Part shown: positions 24 to 24,531 of the stretch, one piece after another
How positions within the stretch are numbered: position 1 is the first letter of the stretch
Layout of the letters: every line of letters begins with the position of its first letter
Assembly: GCA_002714465.1 (NCBI GenBank)
Contig: PAXL01000034.1
Coordinates: forward strand, 1 to 29,504
DNA: 29,504 bases
From: Gemmatimonadota bacterium
Lineage (GTDB): Bacteria; Latescibacterota; UBA2968
Direction of reading: 5' to 3'
Position numbers and translations under genes: made by a program
The notes under the pieces: model-generated
What the model was told of the DNA's origin: nothing
The model's input: only the letters and a program-made list of their open reading frames with translations
The model's database searches: none

Positions 24-209
24 ATGATCGACATACAGAAACTCAAGGAACTCGTGCGACTGATGGTCGCCAATGAACTCACCGAGATCGATCTTCACGA
101 CAGCGAGGAACAGGTCACGATTCATCGGCCCAGCGTGTACGCATCTCCTCAGGTCACTCAGGCGGCCGCCATCGCGCCGCCTCCGGTCCCGGTTGCCGCC
201 CCCGCCCCC
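24..209 (+). pseudogene. accB: AccB N-terminal fragment (biotin carboxyl carrier protein), truncated
   Basis: The first ~62 codons encode the conserved N-terminal block of the biotin carboxyl carrier subunit of acetyl-CoA carboxylase (MIDIQKLKELVRLMVANELT, then an acidic DLHDSEEQVTIHR stretch), followed by the start of the usual Pro/Ala-rich linker. The biotinyl domain with its MKM lysine motif is missing. From about base 205-212 the frame runs antisense through a PhyH gene on the other strand, and the remaining residues up to the stop at 296 are a shadow of that gene. The start is ATG at 24 with only a weak GGAA upstream. In the family, this subunit carries biotin for fatty-acid synthesis in the cytoplasm and is normally followed by accC, which is absent here. 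The fragment cannot work as BCCP. It marks either a rearrangement or an assembly join. Confidence 0.75.
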
Positions 210-212
210 ACG
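205..212. other. Head-on junction between accB and PhyH fragments
   Basis: The plus-strand accB reading and the minus-strand PhyH reading both lose their family sense within a few bases of each other, inside a C-rich tract. The precise crossover is blurred because the proline/alanine linker of accB and the TPW of PhyH are both GC-rich. A small microhomology would explain either a deletion/inversion endpoint or a metagenomic mis-join. Confidence 0.6.
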
Positions 213-621
213 GCGTCGCTGCTTCCGGGCTCTGCCACTTCATGTAGTCTTGATGCCAGTAGAGAGGCGGCCCAAACCCGGGCTTCGAAAGGATGATAAC
301 AGTCTCGTCCGATGAGAGATTCTCCAGCCCGATCTGGCTGCACGCTTCAACCTGACGCGGCTGATCGAGGATATCTGCCGCGAATGGATCGGGAAACCGG
401 TTGTCCATGGTCGGTGTGGCCTCGGTCCAGCTGCGCTCGGTCTTGACAAAGATATCGCTGCCCTGATATCGCACCTTGTTAGAAACCTGCACACGGTCGA
501 AAATGCCATTGGACCACGCCTTGAGTCTGTCCAATAAATCCGAATCCATCACACAGGGCACGATGGTGAATCCTGACTCTATGAGTTCGTCACGTTTGGT
601 GAGTGCGTGTGCGTTTGTCAC
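208..621 (-). pseudogene. PhyH-family Fe(II)/2OG oxygenase, 3' truncated
   Basis: This is the N-terminal part of a phytanoyl-CoA dioxygenase (PhyH, PF05721) family protein of roughly 138 residues. The start region has the usual 'ESGFTIVPCVM' entry helix and strand, and the iron motif H-x-D is present in YWHQDYM. The distal His and the 2-oxoglutarate-binding Arg are lost because the frame enters the antisense of an accB linker near 205-212, after the residues TPW. I chose GTG at 621 because AAGGA lies 7 nt upstream (629-633); the longer TTG start at 645 has no such site. It is the last gene of the minus-strand run and lies 132 nt downstream of the lyase-PhyH fusion gene. The protein as it stands would not bind iron properly, so it is either a broken gene or half of an assembly chimera. 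The substrate cannot be predicted. Confidence 0.7.
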
Positions 622-753
622 GTGTGAATCCTTTCTGAACACCAAAAACAGGTGGTGGTCGATAACACCCGGCTCTACTCGGGTTTGGATACGCCCAAGA
701 CGTGACAGAGAGAGGGTAAGCCCTACTCACTGGCAGAAACCCGAGAGATTCCA

Positions 754-2922
754 CTAACCGACTCTGAAAGCCCAGCCGTCCCAGATATTTTCGGGCGTCG
801 CTGGCACATCTTCACGGAAGTTCTTGGTATCGACCCACCATTGGCGATTCGGAGCAGGACCGTGAGACAGGTTGAAATAGGACGTAAGTCCGTCTTTCTG
901 GTATTCACACGGCACGATATACCTGACGACGGGTTGGTCGTGCTCTGCGGAATAGTTGATGCCTGGACCGTGCACGAGTCGAGGGTGCCAGAAGACGACG
1001 TCACCGACTTTTCCGTGAAATTGAACGGGCGTAACCCTCCTTAGAATCTCGTCCCTCGCCTTGACGTAGTCGTCTGCAAGATCGTCGTGCAGAGGTCCGT
1101 GGACGGTTCGGTGGTATGGGTGGCTCATGTAATGAGAACCGGGCCAGATCGTGAAGCCTCCACAATGCGGAGGCAATGTGTCCGCGAAAACCATCGCGGA
1201 GAGTTGTGCACCGGTATGGTCTCCGTGCGGTCCAAGCTTAGCATCTCGGTCGGGTGACTTCGGGAAGATGCAGTAGACACCTCGAACGCGATTCGCTCGC
1301 TTAACCGGCCCCCCAATGAACGACTCGACAGTTTGTTGCATACGCGGATTGTTCGCGATTTTGTCCACAAAGAATGGTTGTGTACCGATCGTCCGCGACC
1401 GCATCTTCCAAGAACCGCGCCGGAAAAGCCCGAGGTTGTCCCTATCCTCAGCTGTCCATTCCCCTTGTGGGGCATCGATCCATGTAGTGGGATCGTCTCG
1501 CTTCACCAGATCTCGGGGAACATTCTCCCAGACGTGGTCGACGACACGGGAGAATGTCTCCTTCTCGTCTAAGAGGCCACGTTTGACGAGGAATCCCTTC
1601 TCCTTGAAGAACTCGATCTCGGCTTCTGTAAGTGTTGTCTCCCCGTTCGTGAAATCCGGATCCACCAACGGTTCCGGATCCTTGAAGACGACATCCTTCC
1701 CGATAGGCAATCCGTGCAGACGTTGTCCCTCAAACGGGGGATTAAGCAGGTTGTCTAGCTGTCTCGCCTTCTCCTGATCACCCACACCCGCGAGATCAGC
1801 GTCGATCGGCTCGTAACCCTTGTTCAAATACTGATAGGCTGCAAGACGTAGACAACGGAACGCACGCTCCCACTCGAAAGGCTGAATTTGTGGGAATGTC
1901 CATTCCTGCTCACCTGTCCAATAGGGAAAAAGCCAATCGAGTGCACATTTGATCGATCGCCTATCGTCAGTCTCGAAGTTGATCAGGTCGATCCCCCATT
2001 GCCGGCCGATCTCCGCAAGTTCGAGCAGAAGCGACAGGTTCATGCTCGAGTATCCGAGGGCCTTCGTCCGAGCAAGCTCTCTCGGCTGTTGACCGTCGGG
2101 CTCGATCTGCTGAGCTATCCGACGGTCACCTACGCCCTCGAGCACAACGCGCGCCAGATCCGGCTGCCCCACGAAAAGCGCATAGGTCGACACCTGCACA
2201 TCATACGCGCTCGAGTGGTTATTGCCGTGCCGCGCTTCTGCAACGCCTAGAGGTTGCGTCAGCATCCATTCGAGAAAAGCGTGGAACCAAGCCTGCAGGC
2301 CGTGCATGTCTTCCGTTGACCAATTTTCCGATTCTCGAAGAAAACTGATCGCCGGAAGCATCTCGCGTGCGAATGCCGCCGTCTCAATCAGCCCGAAGTT
2401 CGTGCCATCGGTGATCCCGGGTCTTGCCTGTCCAAACGTGAGATGGGGATTCATCTTCGTTTTGGGATCCAGAAACCACGTTCGTAGCTGCAATGCCGCC
2501 CGCGACGCGTAATCCTCGCGCCCCGTGAATCCATATGCGAATCCGAGGCTCTTCACCGTTGAAACGAGCTTCCCTAGGAGCGGTCGATCTGTCGTCTGGG
2601 CTTCGGGATTGGGTTCCCCATCCCGTCGGATGTAGGGCAGGCCATCTGGCTTATCGGGGTCAGGCCACCAGTAAGCCCCAACGCTCATGTAATCGTGCTT
2701 GTCGCCACTAGGAGGTAAGATCGGCTTGTTAACGATCGTCAGAGGCTCTTGCTTCAGGGCTCGTTCCGCATCCACCAGTAGAGCCTCAAGTGCCTGTCCG
2801 CACGGGCTCTCCTCCCTCTTAGAGGACGAACGTGCTCGGCTGATGTAGTCCGAATCAACCGTGAAAATCGGGTCAGTAGGCGTATAGGGTTTGAGCAGGT
2901 TGGCTTCTTCTTCTGGATACAT
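754..2922 (-). CDS. Fusion protein: alginate-lyase domain + PhyH Fe(II)/2OG oxygenase
   Basis: The 722-residue protein has two enzyme domains. Residues ~60-370 match the alginate lyase family (PF05426, an alpha/alpha toroid): the 'SVGAYWWPDPDKPDGLPYIR' block (80-99), the catalytic-region NNH (234-236) followed by YDVQ, and 'ARTKALGYSSMNL' with a likely catalytic Tyr291. A linker (~375-430) leads to a complete PhyH domain (431-722) with His566-x-Asp568, distal His651 and Arg667 for 2-oxoglutarate. The start is ATG at 2922 because AGGAG (2930-2934) lies 7 nt upstream; the longer frame to 3042 reads non-homologous sequence. No signal peptide or lipobox is visible, unlike most alginate lyases, so a cytoplasmic role on imported oligosaccharides is likely. 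Known families suggest beta-elimination of a uronate glycan plus hydroxylation, but the coupling of the two is inference. An aldo/keto reductase lies upstream in the same direction. Confidence 0.85.
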   Translation of the reverse strand: MYPEEEANLLKPYTPTDPIFTVDSDYISRARSSSKREESPCGQALEALLVDAERALKQEPLTIVNKPILPPSGDKHDYMSVGAYWWPDPDKPDGLPYIRRDGEPNPEAQTTDRPLLGKLVSTVKSLGFAYGFTGREDYASRAALQLRTWFLDPKTKMNPHLTFGQARPGITDGTNFGLIETAAFAREMLPAISFLRESENWSTEDMHGLQAWFHAFLEWMLTQPLGVAEARHGNNHSSAYDVQVSTYALFVGQPDLARVVLEGVGDRRIAQQIEPDGQQPRELARTKALGYSSMNLSLLLELAEIGRQWGIDLINFETDDRRSIKCALDWLFPYWTGEQEWTFPQIQPFEWERAFRCLRLAAYQYLNKGYEPIDADLAGVGDQEKARQLDNLLNPPFEGQRLHGLPIGKDVVFKDPEPLVDPDFTNGETTLTEAEIEFFKEKGFLVKRGLLDEKETFSRVVDHVWENVPRDLVKRDDPTTWIDAPQGEWTAEDRDNLGLFRRGSWKMRSRTIGTQPFFVDKIANNPRMQQTVESFIGGPVKRANRVRGVYCIFPKSPDRDAKLGPHGDHTGAQLSAMVFADTLPPHCGGFTIWPGSHYMSHPYHRTVHGPLHDDLADDYVKARDEILRRVTPVQFHGKVGDVVFWHPRLVHGPGINYSAEHDQPVVRYIVPCEYQKDGLTSYFNLSHGPAPNRQWWVDTKNFREDVPATPENIWDGWAFRVG

Positions 2923-2929
2923 CTGAATA

Positions 2930-2934
2930 CTCCT
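2930..2934 (-). promoter_or_regulatory. Ribosome binding site fixing the fusion gene start
   Basis: AGGAG on the minus strand, 7 nt before the ATG at 2922. It decides for this start over the 40-codon-longer open frame. Confidence 0.7.
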
Positions 2935-3188: not shown

Positions 3189-4121
3189 TTACCCTGTCGT
3201 CTGGAACCCGTGCTGATCGCGATGATACTGAGAGTCATAAGTCTGCATGCTCTTATACCATTCGTAGCGGCCGTCGGATGCCTCTTTATAGACACTGCCC
3301 AACAACTCTTGCTGTTCCGCATCCGGCATCTGTGTAAAACCGCGCGCGATGGCGAGGTCCTGCTCAAGGTTTTCCTGGGACTGGATCCCGCAGATAAGCG
3401 TACTGATGGGTTGAGACAGTGCGTAGCGTCGGCATTGTTCGGCAGTCAAACCGAGGTCGTAAACAAACTGCCCGCGGCCGCCCAGCGATTTCATGCCGAT
3501 CACTCCGATCCCTCTTCGGTTGAGCTCAGGTAGTATCTCTTTCTGGAAGCTTCGGTAGTGGGTATCCAGAACCGTGACAGGCATCTGACACGTATCCCAA
3601 TCGAAATCCATCTCCAGCATACGTTTCAGGATGTGTGGGCTCTTGTGTCCCGTGAACCCGATGTGTCGAATCTTACCCGCCTCCTTGGCCGCGGCAGCCG
3701 CCTCGATAGCACCTTCCGCCTGAAAGATCCATTCCGGGTCGTTGTCGTAGTTCACTTCGTGGAATTGCCAGACATCGATCACGTCCGTCCTGAACCGAGC
3801 CAGGCTCTCGTTCAGCTGTGCTTCAGCAGTCAATCGATCGCGCGCACAGACCTTCGTCATCAGAGTAACCTGGTTACGACGACCCACCAACGCCTGACCC
3901 ATACGGCGCTCAGCCTCGCCCTGATGATACTCCCAAGCGTTGTCCATGAACGTCATGCCCGAGTCGATCGCCTCATGGACAAGCCTGACGGTCTCCTGCA
4001 CGCTCATGTCCAGACGCACACTATGTCCCCCGCCAAACCCGACAATCGAAACTTCGAGACCTGTCTTCCCCAGTTCCCTGACCGGGATCCCTGCACTGTT
4101 CCGCTTGATTTCGCTCATCAT
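3189..4121 (-). CDS. Aldo/keto reductase
   Basis: This is a 310-residue NAD(P)H-dependent oxidoreductase with the (beta/alpha)8 aldo/keto reductase fold (PF00248). The opening 'RELGKTGLEVSIVGFGG' and the tetrad Asp60, Tyr65, Lys90 and His121 (in FMDNAWEY, MTK and WQFH) are all present, so it should be catalytically intact. The C-terminal region has the common 'SLGGRG' and CGI-type block that contacts the cofactor. It most resembles the 'predicted oxidoreductase of the aldo/keto reductase family' groups that act on sugars or small aldehydes in the cytoplasm; the substrate is not deducible. The start at 4121 gives MMSE; the second Met is equally possible, with an AGGA about 10 nt upstream. The gene is 60 nt behind the sulfatase and 266 nt before the lyase-PhyH fusion, all in one direction, suggesting a shared catabolic task. 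Confidence 0.9.
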   Translation of the reverse strand: MMSEIKRNSAGIPVRELGKTGLEVSIVGFGGGHSVRLDMSVQETVRLVHEAIDSGMTFMDNAWEYHQGEAERRMGQALVGRRNQVTLMTKVCARDRLTAEAQLNESLARFRTDVIDVWQFHEVNYDNDPEWIFQAEGAIEAAAAAKEAGKIRHIGFTGHKSPHILKRMLEMDFDWDTCQMPVTVLDTHYRSFQKEILPELNRRGIGVIGMKSLGGRGQFVYDLGLTAEQCRRYALSQPISTLICGIQSQENLEQDLAIARGFTQMPDAEQQELLGSVYKEASDGRYEWYKSMQTYDSQYHRDQHGFQTTG

Positions 4122-4181: not shown

Positions 4182-6167
4182 TCAAGCCAGTTCGATTCTC
4201 CTTCTCGTTCTCTCGAACACCCACCGCTTTGCAATCACGTCTCGCTGCGCGTCAAGCATCCCGTCAAACTGATGGGTCTCGATGTGTGGCTTGTGCTCTG
4301 ACCCAAACATACTGCTGTTCGCCTCGGCAGAGCGCAAGACCTCTATCAGTGACTTCAGGGGCCGAAGCTGGTCACGAGTACAATACGAAAGGTAAGCGCC
4401 TGCGCGGAGTCGCGCCCACAGGATTTCGTGCTCCAGACATCGCGTTAAGGCGGCGAGCGCGGCCGATCCTTCTCCCGCACTAACCAGACATTCCGCGGCA
4501 GCCAGACTAACACTGATGGATGCGTCATCGAGGAGGGGAAGCAGACCCTCGACGGTCTGTGTGTCCGTATCGTATGAACGAAGCCCGGTTGCCGCCCAGT
4601 ATCTGACGGCGCTGTCCGGATCCGTCAGCCGGAGTAGCAGCTCCTGTCGTCCATCCTCACCCAACCTGGGCAGATCAGCAGTCTCGAGAATCCGCGGAAA
4701 ATTATCACAACGAAGACCGACCTCTCGACTGACGCCGTTATACTTTGCAGCACGCTCACAAATCTCTGTCTCTTCAAGCAAACCCAAATCATCCGTATCA
4801 ATCATCCATTTGTAGAGTTCCTCTATGAGCTCCTGTTTGATCTCAAAGTGACCTGGATCGTCCGCGAGGTTGTGAATTGATTCAAGATCACCTTGGATGT
4901 CGTAGAGTTCTTCGTGAGGCTTGTGATCTTGCCATACCAGGTACTGTCGGTATTCATCTGGAAACCCCTGCCCTCTGACCATTAAAGGCGGATCATACAT
5001 AAGGAAGACACCATCCGGATCGTGAAGCTTCTGTTCGCCCGGCAAACACGATGTCTCCCAGAAGTCACGCTCGGGAGTCCCATCCTCAGGAATAGGTGAA
5101 AAAAAACCCCCGTCCGGATAGAATGACGCGTAGGGTTGGTGCGGCAAAAAATTTCGGATGTAGCGATACCGGTGGGTTCGGATCGTGCGAATCATTTCGG
5201 GGTTGTTGTCTAGCCTGTCTCGAGCCGAGCAGACATACTCCCTGGATTCGTAATTCGAACCACACAGAGTCCGGCCCTGGACATGCTCTGGGATCGATAT
5301 ACCTGCCAGATGAAGTATTGTCGGTGCGAGATCCATGTGCAGGACAAGATCGTGGATCTTGCTGCCGGGATCGCTCGGTGCGAGATGACGGTACTTCGAC
5401 GGAAACCTGAGAATCAGCGGTATGTGGAGCCCGTCGTCATACGCGTGGATTTTACCACGGGGGTAACCCGACCCGTGATCGGCCCAGAAGGCAACAATCG
5501 TGTCTTCCGACAAACCCTCGGCTTCCAGCTTGTCGAGAATCTCTCCGACTTGCTTGTCAACGTTCGTGATCGCATCGTAGAAAAGTGCCATCCGCTCACG
5601 AAACAGCGGTGTATCCGGAACAAACGACGGAACCGGTGCCTTTTCGGCGTCGTGGAGTTCATCGTCGTCCAGCAAGTTCGATCTCTGACTGCGCGCCTCC
5701 TCCGGTGTAAGCTTGAACACACTGGCGTGCGCACTGCCAAGCTTGAAGCAGGCGAAGAAGGGTCTGTCTTTGGATCGGCTTTCCCAGAAATCGTCTGAAT
5801 CTAGGAACGATTCATACTCCTCCCGCGTGACGTAGAGATTGAGGTCTTGATCCGGCCTTGTGCACGCGTAGCCAGCATCCAAGAGCATCTTAGGAAGCAA
5901 CTCGACTTCTGGCGGCCGGATCACGGCGCTGCGATGGTGATGCGTACCCAACGTCGTCGGATGCATTCCGGTGTAGATGCTCATGCGAGACGGCGAGCAG
6001 ATCGGTCCGACCGTGAAGGCGTTCGTGTACCGGATCCCCTGAGACGCCAGCCGATCAATATTCGGGGTTCTGGAGTAGGTGTCTCCGTAGCACCCGTAGT
6101 TGCGTGCACTCGTGTCGTGGGAGCTGATCCACAGAATGTTCGGTCTGTTCCTAGCGGATCCGCTCAT
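4182..6167 (-). CDS. Sulfatase (S1 family, N-sulfoglucosamine-sulfohydrolase-like) with C-terminal HEAT-like region
   Basis: This is a 661-residue arylsulfatase-fold enzyme (PF00884). The formylglycine signature Cys57-Ser-Pro-Ser-Arg61 followed by MSIYTG is intact, so the Cys-type nucleophile should be matured by an FGE-like enzyme not found in this window. Metal-site residues are Asp18 in 'SSHDTS' and Asp230-His231-Gly; the 'GYPRGK' block (~234-239) resembles the heparan N-sulfatase-like branch, which is my subfamily guess. Residues ~500-610 form short helical pairs rich in Leu/Ala (DPDSAVRYWAATGLR, then DDASISVSLAAAECLV), like PBS-lyase HEAT repeats, an uncommon extension. No signal peptide is seen, so the protein is likely cytoplasmic. 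It overlaps the upstream FAH-family gene by 4 nt (ATGA), so translation is probably coupled. The role is to remove sulfate from a glycan or a sugar derived from one. Confidence 0.9.
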   Translation of the reverse strand: MSGSARNRPNILWISSHDTSARNYGCYGDTYSRTPNIDRLASQGIRYTNAFTVGPICSPSRMSIYTGMHPTTLGTHHHRSAVIRPPEVELLPKMLLDAGYACTRPDQDLNLYVTREEYESFLDSDDFWESRSKDRPFFACFKLGSAHASVFKLTPEEARSQRSNLLDDDELHDAEKAPVPSFVPDTPLFRERMALFYDAITNVDKQVGEILDKLEAEGLSEDTIVAFWADHGSGYPRGKIHAYDDGLHIPLILRFPSKYRHLAPSDPGSKIHDLVLHMDLAPTILHLAGISIPEHVQGRTLCGSNYESREYVCSARDRLDNNPEMIRTIRTHRYRYIRNFLPHQPYASFYPDGGFFSPIPEDGTPERDFWETSCLPGEQKLHDPDGVFLMYDPPLMVRGQGFPDEYRQYLVWQDHKPHEELYDIQGDLESIHNLADDPGHFEIKQELIEELYKWMIDTDDLGLLEETEICERAAKYNGVSREVGLRCDNFPRILETADLPRLGEDGRQELLLRLTDPDSAVRYWAATGLRSYDTDTQTVEGLLPLLDDASISVSLAAAECLVSAGEGSAALAALTRCLEHEILWARLRAGAYLSYCTRDQLRPLKSLIEVLRSAEANSSMFGSEHKPHIETHQFDGMLDAQRDVIAKRWVFERTRRRIELA

Positions 6168-7093
6168 CCGTCTGCGTATTTGCCCGTCAGTTGAGGTGTC
6201 GCACCCTGTTCTCCCAAATCGGCGCGCTCCGCTCGAGTCTCACGTTTCCAGGTCCGGTTGAGCGCATCCTCTACCTTGAACGTCAGTCGTCCGAGTCCTT
6301 CGATCTCCTGCTCCACAACATCACCGTTCTGAAGCGGGTGGAGCTGCCCGTGGTTCACACCCACTGCGATCACGTCGCCCGCATCGAGTGTCGAGTTGGC
6401 CGTTACGAAAGCGACCGTTTCTGCGATCGTGTAGGCCATGTCATCGGTGTTGTAGTCGTGGGTCACCTTTCCGTTGTTCCATTGCTTGACGTGCAACTTA
6501 TGCGGATTCTCAATCTCATCCGCTGTCACGATGTAAGGCCCAATTGGCGCGAAGGTGTCCTTGCACTTCATGAAGTACGGCAGCCCCATACCGGCAGCCA
6601 GACCCCTAGCGGATCCATCACAGAAGTTCAGGTAGCCGAAGACATAGTCCATCGCTTCTTCGACCTTCACCTTAGTCGCCCGCTTCGAGATGACCAGAGC
6701 CATCTCTGCCTCTCCTTCGAAGATCGATGCTGGCACATCGGGCAATTGCATGGTGTCCCCATCACCGATCATCGCATATGAGCTTTTGAAAAACGCCGTT
6801 TGCGCCGGCTTCTCCGGCAGCGTTCCGAACTCCATGTAATTTCCGGCCATACACACGACCGATGTCGGCTGGGGCGTCGGGGCACGCAACCTCACGCATT
6901 CAAGATCGATGGCATCTGAACTCTCAATCGCAGACTGAAACTGCGGTTTGTAATCGGCCCATTGAGAAATGACCGTAATCAGAATCAGCTGAGGAGGGAA
7001 CCCGTCGACGTTCTCGACGAGTGAATCAAGAGCAACGACACCATCGTTGGTAACAGCGCAGAGTCGGAAATCATCGAAGAAGGTCAGCTTCAT
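6164..7093 (-). CDS. Fumarylacetoacetate hydrolase (FAH) family protein
   Basis: This 309-residue protein contains the FAH catalytic domain (PF01557). The metal ligands are visible as Glu128-x-Glu130 in 'FEGEAEMALVI' and Asp159 in 'NFCDGSARG'. Family members hydrolyse or decarboxylate beta-diketo or 2-oxo acids, for example fumarylpyruvate, acylpyruvates, or 2,4-diketo-3-deoxy-sugar acids in the non-phosphorylative L-fucose and L-rhamnose routes. The neighbours (SDR, sugar isomerase-like, sulfatase) favour a sugar-acid substrate, but this is inference. The start at 7093 has GGAG 7 nt upstream. The stop overlaps the sulfatase start by ATGA, and 41 nt separate it from the upstream TIM-barrel gene. 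The N-terminal ~70 residues are the variable lid region seen in many FAH proteins. Confidence 0.88.
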   Translation of the reverse strand: MKLTFFDDFRLCAVTNDGVVALDSLVENVDGFPPQLILITVISQWADYKPQFQSAIESSDAIDLECVRLRAPTPQPTSVVCMAGNYMEFGTLPEKPAQTAFFKSSYAMIGDGDTMQLPDVPASIFEGEAEMALVISKRATKVKVEEAMDYVFGYLNFCDGSARGLAAGMGLPYFMKCKDTFAPIGPYIVTADEIENPHKLHVKQWNNGKVTHDYNTDDMAYTIAETVAFVTANSTLDAGDVIAVGVNHGQLHPLQNGDVVEQEIEGLGRLTFKVEDALNRTWKRETRAERADLGEQGATPQLTGKYADG

Positions 7094-7134: not shown

Positions 7135-7992
7135 CTAGCTCTTCTTTACTGAATACCCGGCAGCTTCGAGAAGTTCAGCGATCCGATTGACTGCCTTGAT
7201 GTAATTCTCGCGACCCGAGACATGGAACTGCTCTGAGTGCAGTAGGTGCGGCTCCGCCGTGATGCAGCCTGAGTAGCCCATCTCGCGCAGGCGCTTGAAG
7301 ATCTCAGGATAGTCGCACTTCCCGTCACCCGCGATGCAGTATGTGCTCGTATCGCCCGGTTCCTTGATGTCTTTCACGTGAACGTTGACGACGTAGTCCT
7401 TAAGTGTCTCGAAAATGTCGATACCAACTTCTCCATGCGCTCCAAAGTTGCCGGGATCGAAATTAAGTCGAAAGTTCGGCGAATCAACCTCCTGAAGCGC
7501 CTTCAGAACCTGCGGTAGCGTGCAGACAGCAGAGGTTCGGTTGGGTGGATTTTCGAGAATCAGGGTCTTTCCCCCAGCCTCCGCGATCTCGGCCATCGCC
7601 CGATACATATCGGTCGCGACAGTGAACCAATCGGTACCTGCCTCTCCCTTCCTGTAGCCCATCGTCCTCAGAAAAGAGGTCCCGATGTAGTCGGCTCTCT
7701 GAACGGCGCGCGTAATATGCGAGATGTTTTCCTTACGTAGGGCTTCGTCGGGGAGTGCGCGTCCGACCTGACCCAAATAGGTCGTGACTTCGAAGCCTCT
7801 CTCTTTGACCCGATCCGCCACTCGCAGGAATGTGTCATCATCCATCTGGTCAACCATCTCTCCGTAAGCAGCGCGAAGCTCGATGAACTTGATCCCAAGC
7901 ACATCGAGTACATCTAGGCCCTCATCCAAGTCCCACGATGGGCTAGGCTCGTCGTTCACCCCTGCAAGACGCACTGTTGATGAATCACTCAT
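7135..7992 (-). CDS. Sugar phosphate isomerase/epimerase-like TIM-barrel protein
   Basis: This 285-residue protein is of the xylose-isomerase-like TIM-barrel family (AP endonuclease family 2, PF01261). The divalent-metal ligands typical of the family can be placed at Glu147 (LILENPPN), Asp179 (NFDPGNF), His205 (VNVHVKD) and Glu247 (TAEPHL). Members isomerise or epimerise keto sugars, inositols or sugar acids, sometimes acting as dehydratases or lyases; the exact reaction cannot be read here. I chose ATG at 7992 (MSDSS), with GGAAG 7 nt upstream; the longer frame to 8037 would overlap the SDR gene end. The gap to the SDR is 22 nt, so the two are probably co-transcribed. Confidence 0.85.
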   Translation of the reverse strand: MSDSSTVRLAGVNDEPSPSWDLDEGLDVLDVLGIKFIELRAAYGEMVDQMDDDTFLRVADRVKERGFEVTTYLGQVGRALPDEALRKENISHITRAVQRADYIGTSFLRTMGYRKGEAGTDWFTVATDMYRAMAEIAEAGGKTLILENPPNRTSAVCTLPQVLKALQEVDSPNFRLNFDPGNFGAHGEVGIDIFETLKDYVVNVHVKDIKEPGDTSTYCIAGDGKCDYPEIFKRLREMGYSGCITAEPHLLHSEQFHVSGRENYIKAVNRIAELLEAAGYSVKKS

Positions 7993-8014
7993 CTTGGTTC
8001 TTCCCATTTCTCGA

Positions 8015-8794
8015 TTAAATGCCGGCGCCGCCGTCAACAGTGATCATCGATCCCGTGATCATCGAAGCTTCGTCGGTGGCTGCGAACAGGAACGTTTTCG
8101 CGATGTCCTCAGGCTCACACAACCGCCCTAGAGGTGTCGAAGCCTTGCGCCGCTCATAATTCTTGGGGTTGTCGATACTCGTCTCCCAGCTGTTCGGGCT
8201 GTGCTCGGAGTCATTGCGAATGAAATTGGTGTCGACGTGACCCGGCGAAATCAGAACACACCGGATATTGTCCTTCGCGTAGGATGCCGCGGCACTTCGC
8301 GTCAGCGCGACGAGACCAATTTTACTAACACCGTAAGCAGGGCTTGTACGGCCCTGTCGGATCGAGGCGAGTGACCCGACGTGGAGGATCACACCACGAC
8401 CCGCGCGTCTCATCGCGGGCACGACGGATTTAATTCCAACAAAGCAGGCCGTCAGATTGACGTCGATCACGTGCCGCCACATCTCTTCGGTCTGCTCGTC
8501 GAAGCTCACACGGTACTGGCTGCCCGAAAGGTTGATCATCAAATCCAGATGTCCAAAGGCTTCCTCTGTCGCGGCCACGGCGCCTTCCCATTGTGCTGTT
8601 TCGCAGACATCCAAGTGTGTTGCTATTGCGCTCCCCCCGCCTTCCACGATCTGGGCAGCCACAGCTTCCGAACGCTCCAAATTGACGTCAGCCACACATA
8701 CGGATGCGCCTTCCTGCGCGTAAAGTCTTGCTGTTGCGCTACCCATCGATCCTGCACCGCCCACGATCAGAGCCGTGCGTCCCCCAAGCCTCAT
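8015..8794 (-). CDS. Short-chain dehydrogenase/reductase (SDR)
   Basis: This is a 259-residue classical SDR. The Rossmann glycine motif is GGAGSMG (12-18), the NxxG-type motif is NLSG (88-91), and the catalytic set is Asn113, Ser141, Tyr154 and Lys158 (YGVSK). Asp36 ('ADVNLE') after beta-2 favours NAD over NADP. The protein ends with the usual ITVDGGAGI. Typical substrates are sugars, sugar acids or cyclic alcohols. It is the first gene of the minus-strand cluster and has a strong site (AGGAGG, 7 nt before ATG), so the cluster promoter should lie in the 8795-9191 intergenic region. With the FAH-family and sugar-isomerase-like genes it fits a non-phosphorylative deoxy-sugar or uronate route, which is inference only. 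Confidence 0.92.
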   Translation of the reverse strand: MRLGGRTALIVGGAGSMGSATARLYAQEGASVCVADVNLERSEAVAAQIVEGGGSAIATHLDVCETAQWEGAVAATEEAFGHLDLMINLSGSQYRVSFDEQTEEMWRHVIDVNLTACFVGIKSVVPAMRRAGRGVILHVGSLASIRQGRTSPAYGVSKIGLVALTRSAAASYAKDNIRCVLISPGHVDTNFIRNDSEHSPNSWETSIDNPKNYERRKASTPLGRLCEPEDIAKTFLFAATDEASMITGSMITVDGGAGI

Positions 8795-13051: not shown

Positions 13052-13453
13052 TCTTGTTCCTCTTCAGTTGGTGTTCAGCGGTCCTGATTACGAATGTGAA
13101 TATACCACACGAGCATCAATAGCGGTGCCCAAGCAGAATCATTGTGCGATCCGGTCCGCGTCGGTGTGCTGAGAGCTATCCTATTCCAAACTGCTGCCAT
13201 AGTGCGGCGCGTTATCCTTGGTTCCGCTCTACCCGGGGCGGCGCGTCTGCTCACGCTCCGGCTTGCCCCGGGCTATTTACTCCACGCCCCTTCGGGGGGG
13301 CTCCCACATCTCATCCTTCTTTGTGTCTTAGAACCGGAGTATGCTACAAGCGTAGCCTGGGAGTAGTTCATATCCTTGAATCCCAACTTGTGGTCACCGC
13401 AGACCGGCCCTAATATCAATCGCATTCAGAGACAACAAAAGAGAGGGCAGAGT
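13052..13453. other. Intergenic region holding a structured repeat-like element
   Basis: These 402 bases separate the divergent pdxH and Ldh_2 genes. Small open frames at 13142-13413 have no credible start site and follow the GC-rich hairpin element, so I treat them as chance. The only distinct structure is the two-hairpin element at 13231-13300, listed separately. Promoters for both flanking genes are expected here but not identified. Confidence 0.5.
13231..13300. repeat. Two-hairpin GC-rich intergenic element, copy 1
   Basis: CCCGGGGC (13232-13239) pairs perfectly with GCCCCGGG (13265-13272), followed 12 nt later by a second short hairpin, CCCC-TTC-GGGG (13287-13297). The same order of a long CCCGGGG-armed hairpin and a compact C4/G4 hairpin, with a similar spacer, occurs at 28960-29013. 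Similar GC-rich elements are scattered in intergenic DNA of some environmental bacteria as far as I recall; function is unknown. Confidence 0.5.
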
Positions 13454-14455
13454 ATGGAGCGCATACCGTTCGAGACTGTCCAGGCTGAGTTCAGACGTGT
13501 CTTGGAGTCGGTTGGATTCACAGTAGAAAAGGCTGATCGATGTGCGTGTCTTTTCGCAGAGAACACGCTGGACGGTGTATACTCGCACGGTCTGAATCGG
13601 TTTCCGGGGTTTGTCAGAGGTGTGCAGGCCGGCAAGGTCACGACGGATGTCGAGCCGGAGTGCACGCACAGTCTTGGAGTTATCGAGCAGTGGGACGGCA
13701 AGACAGGTATCGGGTTGCTGAACGCCGAAATTGCGATGGGTCGTGCTATCTCGATCGCACACGAGCACGGGATGGGGTGTGTGGGCCTAAGGAACACGAA
13801 CCACTGGATGAGGGCTGGGGCCTACGGCCTGCAAGCAGCCGATGCCGGCTGTATCGGGATCTGCTGGACGAACACAACGGTCCTTATGCCGCCCTGGGGC
13901 TCGGACATAAAGAAAATCGGTAACAATCCGCTGACACTTTGCGTCCCATACCGAGGGAAACACGTTCTGCTCGACATGGCAATGAGTCAGTACTCGAACG
14001 GGAAGCTCGAAGTGCTCGCGCGACGCGGTGAAAACTTGCCGTTGCCTGGCGGATACGACACCGACGCTAACCTGACCACCGACCCGAAGGCCATCCTCGA
14101 TTCGAAGCGAGCGCTTCCGATTGGATACTGGAAGGGATCCGGGTTGGCCCTCGTACTCGACCTAATCGCGACCCTCGTCACGAGCGGTGATTCGACGTCT
14201 GTGATCGGTTCCCGATCCGACGAGACCAACGTTTCGCAGGTCTTCATCGCAATCGACGTCGGATCGCTTGCCGGATCTCAGATCGTGGAAGAGACCGTCG
14301 ACCGCATCGTAAAGGACTTCCAAGACGTTCCGCCTTTGGATGGTGTGAACGAGATTCGCTACCCGGGTCAGGGCATGCTCGCCATCAGAGAGGACAACCT
14401 GATGAACGGCATCCCAGTCGACCCCGATCTATGGACCGAAGTCTTAAACATGTAG
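13454..14455 (+). CDS. Ldh_2-family dehydrogenase, 2,3-diketo-L-gulonate reductase-like
   Basis: This 333-residue NAD(P)-dependent oxidoreductase belongs to the malate/L-lactate dehydrogenase family 2 (PF02615), a non-Rossmann fold. It is closest by eye to YiaK/DlgD: the opening 'ERIPFETVQAEFRRVLESVG', 'ENTLDGVYSHGLNRFPGFV' with catalytic His45 (His44 in YiaK), 'GLRNTNHWMRAGAYG', 'GICWTNTTVLMPPWG' and 'GNNPLTLCVP'. Length matches YiaK (332). YiaK reduces 2,3-diketo-L-gulonate in ascorbate/L-gulonate use; related enzymes reduce other 2-oxo acids, so the substrate is tentative. I chose ATG at 13454 (MERIPF) because family proteins start there; a GAGAGG lies ~8 nt upstream and the longer frame from 13376 is not family sequence. 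It fits the sugar-acid theme of the window. Confidence 0.88.
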   Translation: MERIPFETVQAEFRRVLESVGFTVEKADRCACLFAENTLDGVYSHGLNRFPGFVRGVQAGKVTTDVEPECTHSLGVIEQWDGKTGIGLLNAEIAMGRAISIAHEHGMGCVGLRNTNHWMRAGAYGLQAADAGCIGICWTNTTVLMPPWGSDIKKIGNNPLTLCVPYRGKHVLLDMAMSQYSNGKLEVLARRGENLPLPGGYDTDANLTTDPKAILDSKRALPIGYWKGSGLALVLDLIATLVTSGDSTSVIGSRSDETNVSQVFIAIDVGSLAGSQIVEETVDRIVKDFQDVPPLDGVNEIRYPGQGMLAIREDNLMNGIPVDPDLWTEVLNM

Positions 14456-14868: not shown

Positions 14869-16374
14869 ATGCCTGACACTTCATTCCACAATCTCTCACC
14901 CCACGCCAAAGACCTGGCCGAACAATCGCTCAGCTGGTCCGAACCTTATTGGGATCCCGAGTCAGCTCTGTTGCTCTCCAGCAAACCAGGAGAAGGGGTT
15001 TCGAATCCTAGATCGATCGTGAGGAACTCGGTCTGGCTCGCCGTTGGATTCCTGCTTAGGAACGGCAAGGGAGACACCGACCGTGCCGTACGCACCCTAC
15101 ACGCGATCATCGACGCACAGATCGACGAACCCGGCGTGCCCTATCACGGCACCTACTACCGATGGATAGGCGAGCCGAACCCACCCGGGATGGACGCGGT
15201 AATGTGGCGAGACTTCGACCCGAACTGGCGCCAGTTCATCGGTCTTGGACTGGCTACTACAATAGAGGAATACGAACACCGACTTCCAGCAGACCTGATC
15301 GAACGCATCGACAGGTCGCTCGAACTCGCGGTTATCGGTGAACCACCGAATCGATGTCCACCACGATACACAAACATCGCTCTGATGAAGGCAGCTCTCA
15401 ACGTTTGGGTCGGGAAACGCCTGAATCGGTCGGATATGGTCGAGTATGGTGAGACATTCGGGCGAGAAATCTACGACCTGTTCCGCCAAACCGATGCCTA
15501 TGCGGAATACAACTCGCCGACCTACTACGGCACGAATTTTTACGCCTTGGGGTTTTGGCGGAGATACCTAGATGGATCCCCGTTGCACGAATGGGGCGCT
15601 TATATGGAAGCTGAACTCTGGAGGGACACGGCTGCCTACTACCACGCAGGGCTGCGCAACCTATGCGGGCCATTCTCACGCAGCTACGGAATGGACATGA
15701 CGCGCTACACTGCACTCGTCACCCTAGCCTTCTGGATGGCCTTCGGTAAGGACATCACACCGTTTCCTGCACAGGACCGCAGCCTGACCACCCGGCAGGG
15801 AATCGACCACGAGTTCGTCTATGGACCATGTATGGCCATCTACGACTCGAACGCGCCCGACGACGTGCTCGAATCATTCAGGACCTTCATCGGACCAAGA
15901 CGGCGCGAAAAGCAGATCATGACCGAGCCAGATCGGGTCGCCACAACGTGGATGCAAGACGACTACATGCTCGGCGCGGAATCCACAGGTGGATATGTTT
16001 TCCAGAGCTACCAGTTTCACCCGGTCACGGCACACTGGCTCTGCGAGAACGGAGAGGTTGGCTGGCTGCGCCTCAAACACATCGGCTCAATCGATGCGCG
16101 AGCGGATGAGGGCCGGGTCACCATCGCGGCACCAACGAGCAAAAATATCTCCGCACGTGAAGGAGATAGCACAACCTTCACGTTCGAGTTCTACGCACCA
16201 AGACTGACCGAGGGTGACATCACTGCGGATACTTGGCGTCTAAATGGGATGTCCGTTTCTGTTAAGACAGACCTATCGGATGTTCACGTGCAGAAAGAGA
16301 AATCCGTTGTCTCGGCCACGTACACAAGTACTTTGGACACCGCCAGTTTCGAACTCACGTTCCGTAAGCAATAG
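14869..16374 (+). CDS. Unnamed alpha/alpha-toroid (six-hairpin glycosidase/lyase-like) protein
   Basis: I do not recognise a named family. The 501-residue protein has paired amphipathic helices over residues ~1-350 with short aromatic-rich turns: 'VPYHGTYYRWIGEPNPPGMD', 'MWRDFDPNWRQFIG', 'PPRYTNIALMKAALNVW' and the striking 'YAEYNSPTYYGTNFYALGFW'. This is how (alpha/alpha)6-toroid polysaccharide lyases and six-hairpin glycosidases look, followed by a beta-rich C-terminal part (~400-501) like their beta-sandwich. Candidate catalytic residues are Asp/Glu/Tyr in those aromatic blocks, not verified. No signal peptide is evident. I chose ATG at 14869 (MPDTSFHNLSPH), with GGAG ~12 nt upstream; ATG at 14800 has no site. 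The stop is 4 nt before the PhyH start at 16379, so the two are probably translated together. Confidence 0.75.
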   Translation: MPDTSFHNLSPHAKDLAEQSLSWSEPYWDPESALLLSSKPGEGVSNPRSIVRNSVWLAVGFLLRNGKGDTDRAVRTLHAIIDAQIDEPGVPYHGTYYRWIGEPNPPGMDAVMWRDFDPNWRQFIGLGLATTIEEYEHRLPADLIERIDRSLELAVIGEPPNRCPPRYTNIALMKAALNVWVGKRLNRSDMVEYGETFGREIYDLFRQTDAYAEYNSPTYYGTNFYALGFWRRYLDGSPLHEWGAYMEAELWRDTAAYYHAGLRNLCGPFSRSYGMDMTRYTALVTLAFWMAFGKDITPFPAQDRSLTTRQGIDHEFVYGPCMAIYDSNAPDDVLESFRTFIGPRRREKQIMTEPDRVATTWMQDDYMLGAESTGGYVFQSYQFHPVTAHWLCENGEVGWLRLKHIGSIDARADEGRVTIAAPTSKNISAREGDSTTFTFEFYAPRLTEGDITADTWRLNGMSVSVKTDLSDVHVQKEKSVVSATYTSTLDTASFELTFRKQ

Positions 16375-16378
16375 CTCA

Positions 16379-17170
16379 ATGTCTATACCTAAAGACCACA
16401 GCTACCTCTTCGACCTGCAAGGTTTCATCGTGCTGGAGGACGTGCTAACTCAAGAGGAGTGTAACGTCATTCTGGACGTGTTGTCGGACCTAGAGGCCAA
16501 GGAATATGAGGACACGTGGATCGAGGCGATCGGTGGCGGAAGACCAACAAAGGAAGCACAGCGAGAAAATCAAATCCGGCTGAACGGGCTCCCCAGACTG
16601 GACCCGATCTTCGATTCGTTGATCGGTCATGATCGCGTTCTCCCCTACCTGCATGAGTTCGTCGGCGAACCCCAGCTGATCAATACTTGGTCGATCTCAA
16701 AAAGCAAAGGAGCAGCATTCAGCGGCTGGCATAGAGGCATCCCAACCACGGACCACGCGTATAGAAACGGTATCATTCGGACGCGGATGCTCAACACTGT
16801 TTACTTCCTAAAAGACAACGGCCCGGAAGACGGGTGTGTCGTCGCCATTCCGGGCTCGCACAAAAGCAACATCGATATCGACCTCCAGGCTCGTCCTGCT
16901 TACGAGATGCCGGGCGCGACCCCGATCACCGGGCGGGCCGGTGACTGTTTGATCTTCTCGGAAGCCACACTGCACGACGGTCTGCCCAAGACCACAGACG
17001 GTGTGCGAACAAACCTCTACTACAACTACGTCCACGCACACTATAACGTGATGACCCGAGAGCCCAGAAACTGCCACCATTTCTACTTCCCGCCCGAGGT
17101 TCGCAGTCGGTTTGACGACACTCGCCTGGAGCTCACCCAGTGGATGGATCTGGCGAGATGGGACTATTGA
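16379..17170 (+). CDS. PhyH-family protein with H-x-G in place of H-x-D
   Basis: This 263-residue PhyH (PF05721) double-stranded beta-helix protein has the entry 'FDLQGFIVLEDVLTQEECNV', the family core 'DNGPEDGCVVAIPGSHKSN' (147-164), a distal His199 in 'FSEATLHDG' and Arg210 for 2-oxoglutarate. At the facial triad the usual H-x-D reads His118-Arg-Gly120 (GWHRGIPTTDH); Asp125 is five residues on. Loss of the carboxylate ligand is the known signature of Fe(II)/2OG radical halogenases (SyrB2 has Ala, WelO5 has Gly), although a bacterial PhyH subgroup with HGG-type motifs exists whose chemistry I do not know. The start ATG at 16379 lies 4 nt after the toroid gene stop; the Shine-Dalgarno is weak, consistent with coupling. 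The alcohol dehydrogenase follows 47 nt later. Confidence 0.85.
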   Translation: MSIPKDHSYLFDLQGFIVLEDVLTQEECNVILDVLSDLEAKEYEDTWIEAIGGGRPTKEAQRENQIRLNGLPRLDPIFDSLIGHDRVLPYLHEFVGEPQLINTWSISKSKGAAFSGWHRGIPTTDHAYRNGIIRTRMLNTVYFLKDNGPEDGCVVAIPGSHKSNIDIDLQARPAYEMPGATPITGRAGDCLIFSEATLHDGLPKTTDGVRTNLYYNYVHAHYNVMTREPRNCHHFYFPPEVRSRFDDTRLELTQWMDLARWDY

Positions 17171-20695: not shown

Positions 20696-21454
20696 TTGCC
20701 AGACTTCAAAAAAGCAAAACAAGCCTTTGACCGCGACGGATTCGTCGTTCTCAGGAGTTTCCTAGGCGACGACGGAACGACTGACCTGATCGACAACGTC
20801 GATCGCTATATAAATAAAGTGGTTCCAACCGTACCGCCCGAGAACGCCTTCTACGAAGACACCTCAGATCTCTCGACGCTCAAACAGCTGCCACATATGC
20901 ATCTCCACGACCCTTATTTCAACCGGATGCTGAACAAGAGCCCGTTCCGTGAGCTTGCGGAAATGTTGCTGGATGGCGAAGTCGTACCGAAGAACGCACA
21001 ATACCTGTGCAAACCACCCCAAACAGGCCAAGCGACACCACCCCATCAGGACGGATACTATTTCATGATTGAACCTGTCGAGGGCCTTACGATGTGGATC
21101 GGGATGGATCACGCGGATGAGGAGAACGGATGTCTGCGCTACGTGAAAGGTTCTCACCGTCTGGGACTTCGTCCTCACAGTAGAACGCAAACACTCGGAT
21201 TTTCTCAGGGGATAACCGACTTTGGAACCGAGGGTGACTTAACTAACGAAAAAGCCTATACAGCATCTCCTGGCGACGTGCTCGCACATCACGCCCTTGC
21301 CATTCATCGCGCTGACTCGAATCGGTCCATCGACCGCCCCCGTAGAGCAATCGGCCTAGTCTATCTCTCCTCCTGCGCCAAAGAACGCACGGAAGAGCTC
21401 TCCGAATACCGCCGTAAACTCGCAGACGACTTGACCTCAAAGGGTCGTATCTAG
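20696..21454 (+). CDS. PhyH-family Fe(II)/2OG dioxygenase
   Basis: This complete 252-residue PhyH enzyme begins 'FKKAKQAFDRDGFVVLRSFL', as is normal for the family. Iron ligands are His117-x-Asp119 in 'TPPHQDGYYF' and distal His204 in 'HHALAIHRAD'; Arg216 or Arg217 in 'DRPRRAIGLVY' binds 2-oxoglutarate. The core 'DEENGCLRYVKGSHRLGLRP' is typical. Enzymes of this family hydroxylate small molecules, for example phytanoyl-CoA, ectoine or 2-aminoethylphosphonate (PhnY). The neighbouring phosphonoacetaldehyde-reductase-like gene makes a phosphonate substrate conceivable but unproven. Translation starts at TTG with a strong AGGAG. It is convergent with sthA across 189 nt. Confidence 0.9.
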   Translation: MPDFKKAKQAFDRDGFVVLRSFLGDDGTTDLIDNVDRYINKVVPTVPPENAFYEDTSDLSTLKQLPHMHLHDPYFNRMLNKSPFRELAEMLLDGEVVPKNAQYLCKPPQTGQATPPHQDGYYFMIEPVEGLTMWIGMDHADEENGCLRYVKGSHRLGLRPHSRTQTLGFSQGITDFGTEGDLTNEKAYTASPGDVLAHHALAIHRADSNRSIDRPRRAIGLVYLSSCAKERTEELSEYRRKLADDLTSKGRI

Positions 21455-23165: not shown

Positions 23166-23576
23166 TCAACTACCGAGTATGATGTTCCCTCCTCCCGGTG
23201 CCCCACCCGCCTGACCCGGACCGGTGATATTCGGCGGTCCCGTCTTTGGCACGACAATACGGGAGGACTCCTGTCGCTGAATCTCTTTTGCCTCCTCGAT
23301 CATCTTTTCGATCGCATCCTTGATCGCGTCCGGGAACTTCTGGAGGGCTTCCTCAAGCGAGGCCGCTTCGATCTGCGTGCTCACAGGCACAGGTCCCATT
23401 TGCGACATGATCTGCGCGGAGCCGGTATAGATCGCGGGTCTCGAGTCGTCCTCCGAGCCATCAGTCTTAATCGGAATCAGCCGACGGATCGACGCCACCT
23501 TCAGATCAGTGAACGACTCTTCTCGGTACATGTTCTCTGTATCGACCTGAATCTGGTCGAGTCCCTGCTGGTTCAT
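23166..23576 (-). CDS. Small hypothetical protein with Gly/Pro-rich tail
   Basis: I do not recognise a named family. The 136-residue protein is soluble-looking. Residues ~10-70 contain 'MYREESFTDLKVASIRRLIP' and 'IYTGSAQIMSQMGPVPV', probably a small beta domain; ~70-105 is a long amphipathic helix (SLEEALQKFPDAIKDAIEKM and following); the tail from ~112 is Gly/Pro-rich (TGPPNITGPGQAGGAPGGG) and likely disordered. It has no signal peptide, membrane segment or Cys cluster. The start overlaps the stop of the TauD gene by 4 nt (ATGA, 23573-23576), so translation is coupled and the two proteins probably work in one process or at matched levels. The codon pattern looks coding throughout. Confidence 0.8.
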   Translation of the reverse strand: MNQQGLDQIQVDTENMYREESFTDLKVASIRRLIPIKTDGSEDDSRPAIYTGSAQIMSQMGPVPVSTQIEAASLEEALQKFPDAIKDAIEKMIEEAKEIQRQESSRIVVPKTGPPNITGPGQAGGAPGGGNIILGS

Positions 23577-24409
23577 GCCTCCTCCTTTGGAAATATCGCC
23601 GGATCTCCCTCGGGAAAGCCGACAGCTTGAGTCCGTCTCATCAGACGGCGCTTGGTCTCTTCTACGGTTGTTCGTCGATGCTGCGTCGTCCGGTTATCCC
23701 AAATCACGAGGTCCCCTGGCTGCCATCCGTGCATCCAGACGAACCGATCTTCTGTCGTGTAGGACCGGAGCCGCGCGATCAGAGATTCACTCTCTTCGTC
23801 ATTCTCATCGACGACACGAGCTGCGTGATTCGAGCTGAAGTAGAGGCTCTTCCGTCCAGACTCCGGGTGCGTGATCACGGCCGGATGGCTGACTGGTGTA
23901 TCGGATCGGTAGCTCGCCTTCGCGTGTCCATAGACAATCGACACAGATTCCAAGCGTTCACGCGATTGCGCGTCTAGCGCGTCGTACGATGCGATTCCGC
24001 TCGCCCAGAATGTTTGCCCACTGTCGCTCGGCGCTTCAACGGCATAAAGAACGGACACGGTCCCAGCCTCGACACAGAACGCTAGATCCGAGTGAAAGCT
24101 CACCTCGGAGTTTCCGAGTGCTCCAATCGGTTGACCGTCCTCTTCGACATTAGAGATCACACAAATCTCGGGCAACTTACCGACGTTTTTCACGTTTGTT
24201 GGGTGCGGTACCGGATCGCAGAACACTCGACTGAAAGTGACCTGCTGTTCTTCATTCAACTCTTGATCCCGGAACACCAGGACCGAATGCTCCCAAAAGG
24301 CCCCCTGCAGATACAGCCGATTCCTTTCAGAAACGCACTGCGACACATCAACTCCGCTCACATACGCTCCAAGTGCCGCCCCGGTCGGTTCTATAAGCAG
24401 ATCAGACAT
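23573..24409 (-). CDS. TauD/TfdA-family Fe(II)/2OG dioxygenase
   Basis: This 278-residue enzyme (PF02668) starts 'MSDLLIEPTGAALGAYVSGV', the standard TauD opening. Iron ligands are His106-x-Asp108 in 'VSFHSDLAF' and His244 in 'DNRTTQHRR'; the 2-oxoglutarate Arg is in the following 'RRLMRRT'. The family covers taurine, alkylsulfate (AtsK), 2,4-D and other side-chain oxygenases; the aromatic/thiol pocket residues do not let me choose. I chose ATG at 24409; the frame stays open to 24520 but that part is not family-like. It lies 122 nt downstream of ettA, and its stop overlaps the next small gene by ATGA. Confidence 0.9.
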   Translation of the reverse strand: MSDLLIEPTGAALGAYVSGVDVSQCVSERNRLYLQGAFWEHSVLVFRDQELNEEQQVTFSRVFCDPVPHPTNVKNVGKLPEICVISNVEEDGQPIGALGNSEVSFHSDLAFCVEAGTVSVLYAVEAPSDSGQTFWASGIASYDALDAQSRERLESVSIVYGHAKASYRSDTPVSHPAVITHPESGRKSLYFSSNHAARVVDENDEESESLIARLRSYTTEDRFVWMHGWQPGDLVIWDNRTTQHRRTTVEETKRRLMRRTQAVGFPEGDPAIFPKEEA

Positions 24410-24531
24410 ACTCTTTAAAGGTAACTCGTCACGATCCTCTCGACATGTCTCCATCAGACAGAATTTCGGGACTGCACTCGAAGTAGAACACCTATAGCCA
24501 AAACCGAAGCTGCCATACAATCTTCTGTCTT

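Follow-up and report, generated by a model that had tools for sequence, protein, structure and literature searches.

The described proteins closest to the gene treated here are of two types. Polysaccharide lyases of the PL38 family whose structures have been solved, such as BACOVA_01668 (PDB 3nnb/3nfv) and BoPL38 (PDB 8bdq), are single-domain chains. The other type consists of PhyH-type oxygenases, namely SnoK, SnoN, KanJ, GriE, EctD and phytanoyl-CoA hydroxylase. For the Latescibacterota, the relevant passages of PMC12993501 give alginate lyase and dioxygenase as separate enzymes. The window analyzed in this study, that is, the whole stretch of 29,504 nucleotides of contig PAXL01000034.1, carries a gene of 722 codons (754..2922, minus strand) in which a PL38-type lyase is fused to a PhyH oxygenase. 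Thus, in contrast to the solved lyases, this protein and its fused relatives bear an added oxygenase. The first-pass annotation had stated that no described enzyme has this pairing, and our literature searches found none. No paper with both "phytanoyl-CoA dioxygenase" and "alginate lyase" appeared in a search that covered few subscription papers, and the pairing is not described in the passages of PMC12993501 and PMC4454575 that were consulted.

The open frame of the fusion runs on the minus strand, as do all features of the gene given below, from an ATG at 2922 to a stop that ends at 754. An AGGAG ribosome-binding box (2930..2934) lies 8-12 bases ahead of the ATG. The single frame of 722 codons and its own ribosome site were therefore described correctly before, but the frame had been given without a strand; the plus-strand reading of 754-2922 was rejected because stops are present and the longest open reading frame there is 153 amino acids. 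An alternative TTG start upstream would give 762 codons, but in all 19 rows of the full-length fusion alignment (A1) the protein begins at the position that corresponds to the ATG. In the Pfam search of the 722-residue protein, Alginate_lyase (PF05426) matched residues 63-341 with an E value of 1.4e-77, above the curated cut-off, and PhyH (PF05721) matched residues 506-659 with an E value of 7.7e-11 (43.1 bits against a cut-off of 22). Together with the fold alignments, these matches place the lyase half at residues 1 to about 394 (1741..2922) and the half of the Fe(II)/2-oxoglutarate (2OG) oxygenase at residues 400-722 plus the stop (754..1725). The predicted two-domain model of the whole protein had a predicted template-modeling score (pTM) of 0.90.

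The active-site residues of both halves were found by alignment at exactly the numbers that had been stated earlier. In the lyase half, N235 and H236 of the Asn234-Asn235-His236 motif (2215..2223) align with N242 and H243 of BoPL38, and Tyr291 (2050..2052) aligns with the catalytic Y298. Furthermore, Y84, D101 and Q165 of the fusion correspond to Y91, D108 and Q173 of BoPL38, and H297 of BoPL38 is replaced by Gly290. Six of these seven aligned positions, all but H243, were mutated in the BoPL38 structures, and five of the six are kept in the fusion. The fold match of the model shows that the lyase half has the (alpha/alpha) barrel fold of BACOVA_01668 and BoPL38, and the fold shared with these PL38 lyases extends over model residues 17-398, residues 18-397 being aligned with BACOVA_01668 (3nnb). 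In the PhyH half, which has a double-stranded beta-helix fold, the presumed iron ligands are His566-x-Asp568 (1219..1227) and His651 (970..972), and the presumed 2OG anchor is Arg667 (922..924). The motif N234-N235-H236 together with Y291 is kept in 35 of 36 fusions, and H566, D568, H651 and R667 are kept in all 36. The triad and the arginine are also present in 34 of 34 aligned stand-alone PhyH relatives (34 of 120 listed). Both halves keep intact active-site residues, and both activities are predicted.

The PhyH half is less easily compared with known enzymes. Its best sequence match in the PDB is SnoN, with an E value of only 0.0088; therefore it is without a close solved relative. Its identity to the PhyH-type enzymes named above is only 14-20%, and its His-to-Arg spacing of 16 residues is unlike theirs. 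We rejected the assignment of a substrate from the fold, because the best PDB matches were tied among amino-acid, terpenoid, alkaloid and sugar oxygenases.

We then consider the boundary between the halves. The junction was displayed with 24 of the 94 rows of a second alignment (A2), consisting of 6 fusions, 13 stand-alone PhyH proteins and 5 stand-alone lyases. All five lyases end at the column of residue 393, with 5 residues more in one of them (P0059), and 12 of the 13 PhyH proteins start at residues 392-399, the remaining one being 15 residues longer. The junction (residues 394-402, 1717..1743) thus coincides with the end of the stand-alone lyases and with the beginning of the stand-alone PhyH proteins, and therefore what had been taken as a linker at codons ~375-430 is not a spacer but the PhyH protein's own N-terminus. 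Small in-frame insertions occur at the junction in some members. The fusion of two complete domains, without an extra linker, is real.

This fusion recurs widely. About 5.8 billion proteins were searched; 7998 candidates were scored, 1048 of them matched, and the best 120 of the 1048 were examined. They comprised 36 full-coverage two-domain fusions (that of the window and 35 others, 62-79% identical to it), 3 fusions cut short in the PhyH part (P0038-P0040) and 81 lyase-only proteins. The protein cluster of the window's own fusion contains 8 contigs. When two peptide patterns taken from the PhyH half were used to scan bacterial and archaeal genome contigs, 65 loci were obtained, and 10 of them carry the fusion, which in L009 is cut by the contig end. 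The titles of these 10 loci name Latescibacterota/Latescibacteria in 8 cases and Gemmatimonadota/Gemmatimonadetes in 2. The Latescibacterota group, defined as the phylum group to which genome G003 (that of locus L003) belongs, was represented by 64 genomes, both Gemmatimonadota-labelled fusion genomes among them, and 12 of the 64 have the fusion. From the closest counterparts of its ABC-F and dihydrolipoamide-dehydrogenase-like proteins within this group, the window probably comes from this phylum as well. Thus the homologs are not always two separate genes, and the same two genes adjacent but unfused were not seen among the matches listed for the 64 genomes; the PhyH genes close to unfused lyases were all different ones.

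The lyase halves of the fusions form one clade in a tree of 100 rows, with a Shimodaira-Hasegawa-like approximate likelihood ratio (SH-aLRT) support of 99. In a tree of 154 rows, the PhyH halves require one label change, with a weak support of 42. Among eight close genomes, the ratio of nonsynonymous to synonymous substitution rates (omega) was 0.10-0.28 for the lyase half and 0.07-0.36 for the PhyH half, which indicates that both halves are under purifying selection. Genome G003 has a second copy (L088:1477-2403) upstream of the intact one, in which a large internal deletion has joined lyase residues 1-156 to PhyH residues 587-722.

With regard to cellular location, a hydrophobic N-terminus was defined by our own threshold as a mean hydropathy of at least 1.6 over 12 residues within the first 40 residues. 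The highest value among the 36 fusions was 1.28, so that none of them reached the threshold, in contrast to 54 of 64 stand-alone PL38-like relatives. The cytoplasmic role that had been proposed from the absence of a signal peptide is therefore probable, as judged by hydropathy. The four nearest stand-alone lyases (P0057-P0060) also stay below 1.6, which suggests that the lyase had probably turned cytoplasmic ahead of the fusion event.

In the window, the fusion comes after five genes on the same strand. The next gene upstream encodes an aldo/keto reductase (3189..4121, Pfam), and before it lie a sulfatase with HEAT repeats (4182..6167), whose best PDB matches are named S1_8 sulfatases, and a member of the FAA-hydrolase family (6164..7093, Pfam). 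The PDB relatives of the latter include HpaG/HpcE-type enzymes, maleylpyruvate hydrolase and L-2,4-diketo-3-deoxyrhamnonate hydrolase. Profile matches identify the remaining two as a xylose-isomerase-like TIM barrel, which is sugar epimerase-like (7135..8037), and a short-chain dehydrogenase (8015..8794). Farther along the window, an Ldh_2-family gene (13376-14455) scores above the NCBIfam cut-off for 3-dehydro-L-gulonate 2-dehydrogenase, and Ldh_2 genes adjoin PL38-like lyases at L121 and L124. Three further genes of Fe(II)/2OG-type oxygenases, two PhyH and one TauD, lie at 16244-17170, 20696-21454 and 23573-24520. Near the fusion in the G003 group there are a BNR_4 protein with weak similarity to PL25 ulvan lyases (E value 5.9e-5) and a protein with PL4 domains II and III, for which the PDB gave no match. 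A further neighbor, of about 670 residues (L005:2132-4153), had no Pfam match and a best PDB E value of 0.15.

To describe the surroundings by numbers, we used 20 control regions, picked by hand from 4 genomes, and 13 of the 16 lyase-only places as stand-alone lyase loci, three partial ones being omitted. Fusion loci had sulfatases nearby in 10 of 12 cases (21 genes in 197 kb) and stand-alone PhyH loci in 4 of 5 (8 genes in 87 kb); the figures were 4 of 13 for stand-alone lyase loci (6 genes in 142 kb) and 5 of 20 for controls (5 genes in 280 kb). For fusion loci against controls, p was 4.6e-5 by genes and 0.0019 by loci, values that overstate the case because the loci are partly syntenic copies. 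PhyH genes were found near 8 of the 13 unfused lyase loci (16 genes in 142 kb) and in 5 of the 20 controls (9 genes in 280 kb); this comparison (p 0.041 by loci) also includes likely syntenic loci. A match to the window's sulfatase at E <= 1e-120 occurs once each in 21 of the 64 genomes and in 10 of the 12 fusion genomes. In 7 of the 12, a close relative of this sulfatase shares a contig with the fusion, at a distance of 3.8 to 19 kb; in G002 and G005 it matches only in part in one frame.

Taken comprehensively, we give an even chance to the interpretation that the fusion works in the cytoplasm of Latescibacterota as a bifunctional enzyme in the catabolism of sulfated uronate glycans. The loci that carry it are probably for sulfated uronate glycans, and both halves most likely serve one pathway. 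According to this interpretation, oligosaccharides would be imported and desulfated, in the window perhaps by the neighboring sulfatase. The PL38-type half would cut the uronate chain by beta-elimination, in which His236 and Tyr291 serve as base and acid. Using Fe(II), O2 and 2-oxoglutarate, the PhyH half would oxidize a sugar that belongs to this pathway, most likely the oligosaccharide in its cut or decorated form. The short-chain dehydrogenase, epimerase-like and FAA-hydrolase neighbors may then convert the product to central metabolites. As to what the substrate is, which oxidation takes place and whether there is channeling, we can only guess.

Several results weigh against this interpretation. 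When syntenic fusion loci were merged by eye, 6 groups remained, and the sulfatase test gave 4 of 6 against 5 of 20 (p 0.084). Compared with the controls, sulfatases were not enriched near unfused lyases (p 0.13), nor were other PhyH genes around the fusions (8 genes in 197 kb, p 0.40). The 7 genomes with a linked sulfatase are closely related, so that with the window they make about two independent cases. In G009, which is closest to the window within the 64-genome group by the ABC-F (92%) and dihydrolipoamide-dehydrogenase-like (89%) proteins, the cluster of the FAA-hydrolase (88% identical to the window's), epimerase-like (83%), aldo/keto reductase (82%) and sulfatase (69%) genes is without the fusion, which lies on another contig; the window's short-chain dehydrogenase has only 28-29% matches there. 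PhyH genes are moreover very common: 11 genomes of the Latescibacterota group were counted, and each gave at least 98-126 matches, so a nearby PhyH gene is weak evidence. The remaining results concern the tie between the halves. We found 212 stand-alone relatives of the PhyH half, one of which (L012) adjoins luciferase-like monooxygenases and a thioesterase. In one fusion (L008:10001-12046, UBA6620, P0030) the lyase half has decayed in frame, with segments missing, one of them of 30 residues, Tyr291 lost and NNH changed to DHH, although the PhyH half is intact and 80% identical to that of the window.

The first-pass annotation had proposed that cleavage is physically coupled to oxidation. The fusion and the intact sites that it described are borne out, but a lyase-dead relative and many unfused PhyH relatives speak against a tight coupling, and obligatory product transfer should not be claimed. 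It is possible, though we say so tentatively, that the PhyH half carries out an undescribed Fe(II)/2OG step, such as hydroxylation, O-demethylation or a SnoN-like epimerization, directly on the lyase-cut oligouronide. If this is true, Latescibacterota have made an O2-dependent modification part of their breakdown of uronate glycans, and this could hint why these and related phyla bear so many PhyH genes. In Poribacteria, PhyH genes are strikingly abundant and most are without an assignable function, according to the part of PMC3909097 that we consulted. Since the partner in this natural fusion is an enzyme whose chemistry is known, the protein offers a handle on the role of one PhyH subfamily and makes that question directly testable with one expressed protein. 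It also hints that these uncultured bacteria break down acidic sulfated sugars with an oxidative step that is so far undescribed.

The decayed lyase half of L008, the 212 stand-alone relatives and the non-glycan nearest neighbors of L012 would also fit two independent enzymes that share a chain for expression or stability, the PhyH substrate being unrelated to that of the lyase, and with so many PhyH genes in each genome a fusion could plausibly arise by accident. We consider this somewhat unlikely. The fusion is kept down to about 62% identity with lyase halves of one clade, even if a single origin of the PhyH halves has weak support, and both halves are constrained. In addition, 4 of 5 stand-alone PhyH loci, including L012, have sulfatases nearby, against 5 of 20 controls, and PhyH genes are often near unfused lyases of the phylum.

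O-demethylating 2OG oxygenases are known. The sulfatase-rich setting suggests a decorated glycan, from which the PhyH half might first remove a substituent such as O-methyl oxidatively, the lyase half cutting afterwards; with fold matches tied among such different oxygenases, this order is doubtful. It is very unlikely that the lyase half is a mere glycan-binding module presenting substrate to the oxygenase, because its catalytic residues, absent from one member, are kept in 35 of 36 fusions under strong constraint. An assembly mis-join or frameshift, to which the chimeric look of the window's left end (about base 230) might point, was rejected as having practically no chance in view of the 35 other fusion clusters, the unchanged boundary in all 19 rows of the full-length alignment, the 12 of 64 genomes and the 8 contigs of the window's own cluster. 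At that end (1-645), the plus strand opens with ~230 bases that look like the beginning of a gene for a biotin carboxyl carrier protein, which we take to be accB. A truncated PhyH gene (154-645, minus strand) breaks off at the same point, and a chimeric contig end is therefore likely.

Finally, we compared the cytoplasmic bifunctional enzyme proposed here with other multi-domain proteins of this lyase type. Sixteen long lyase-only proteins (P0041-P0056) were found, and all 8 of those scanned are tandem PL38-like lyases, in which the partner is a second lyase and not an oxygenase. At L116:432-2870 (G059), a PL38-like lyase is in one frame with an amidase (PF01425, E value 7.6e-58), again a partner other than an oxygenase; at L113 and L120 the amidase is a separate gene next to the lyase. 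In another case (L126:2585-4608), the frame of a PL38-like lyase (30% identical) and a PhyH gene overlap in the same orientation, and the pair is possibly an unfused counterpart with another PhyH subfamily. In conclusion, the parts of the fusion are already known and it is not a new kind of system; what is new is its architecture.
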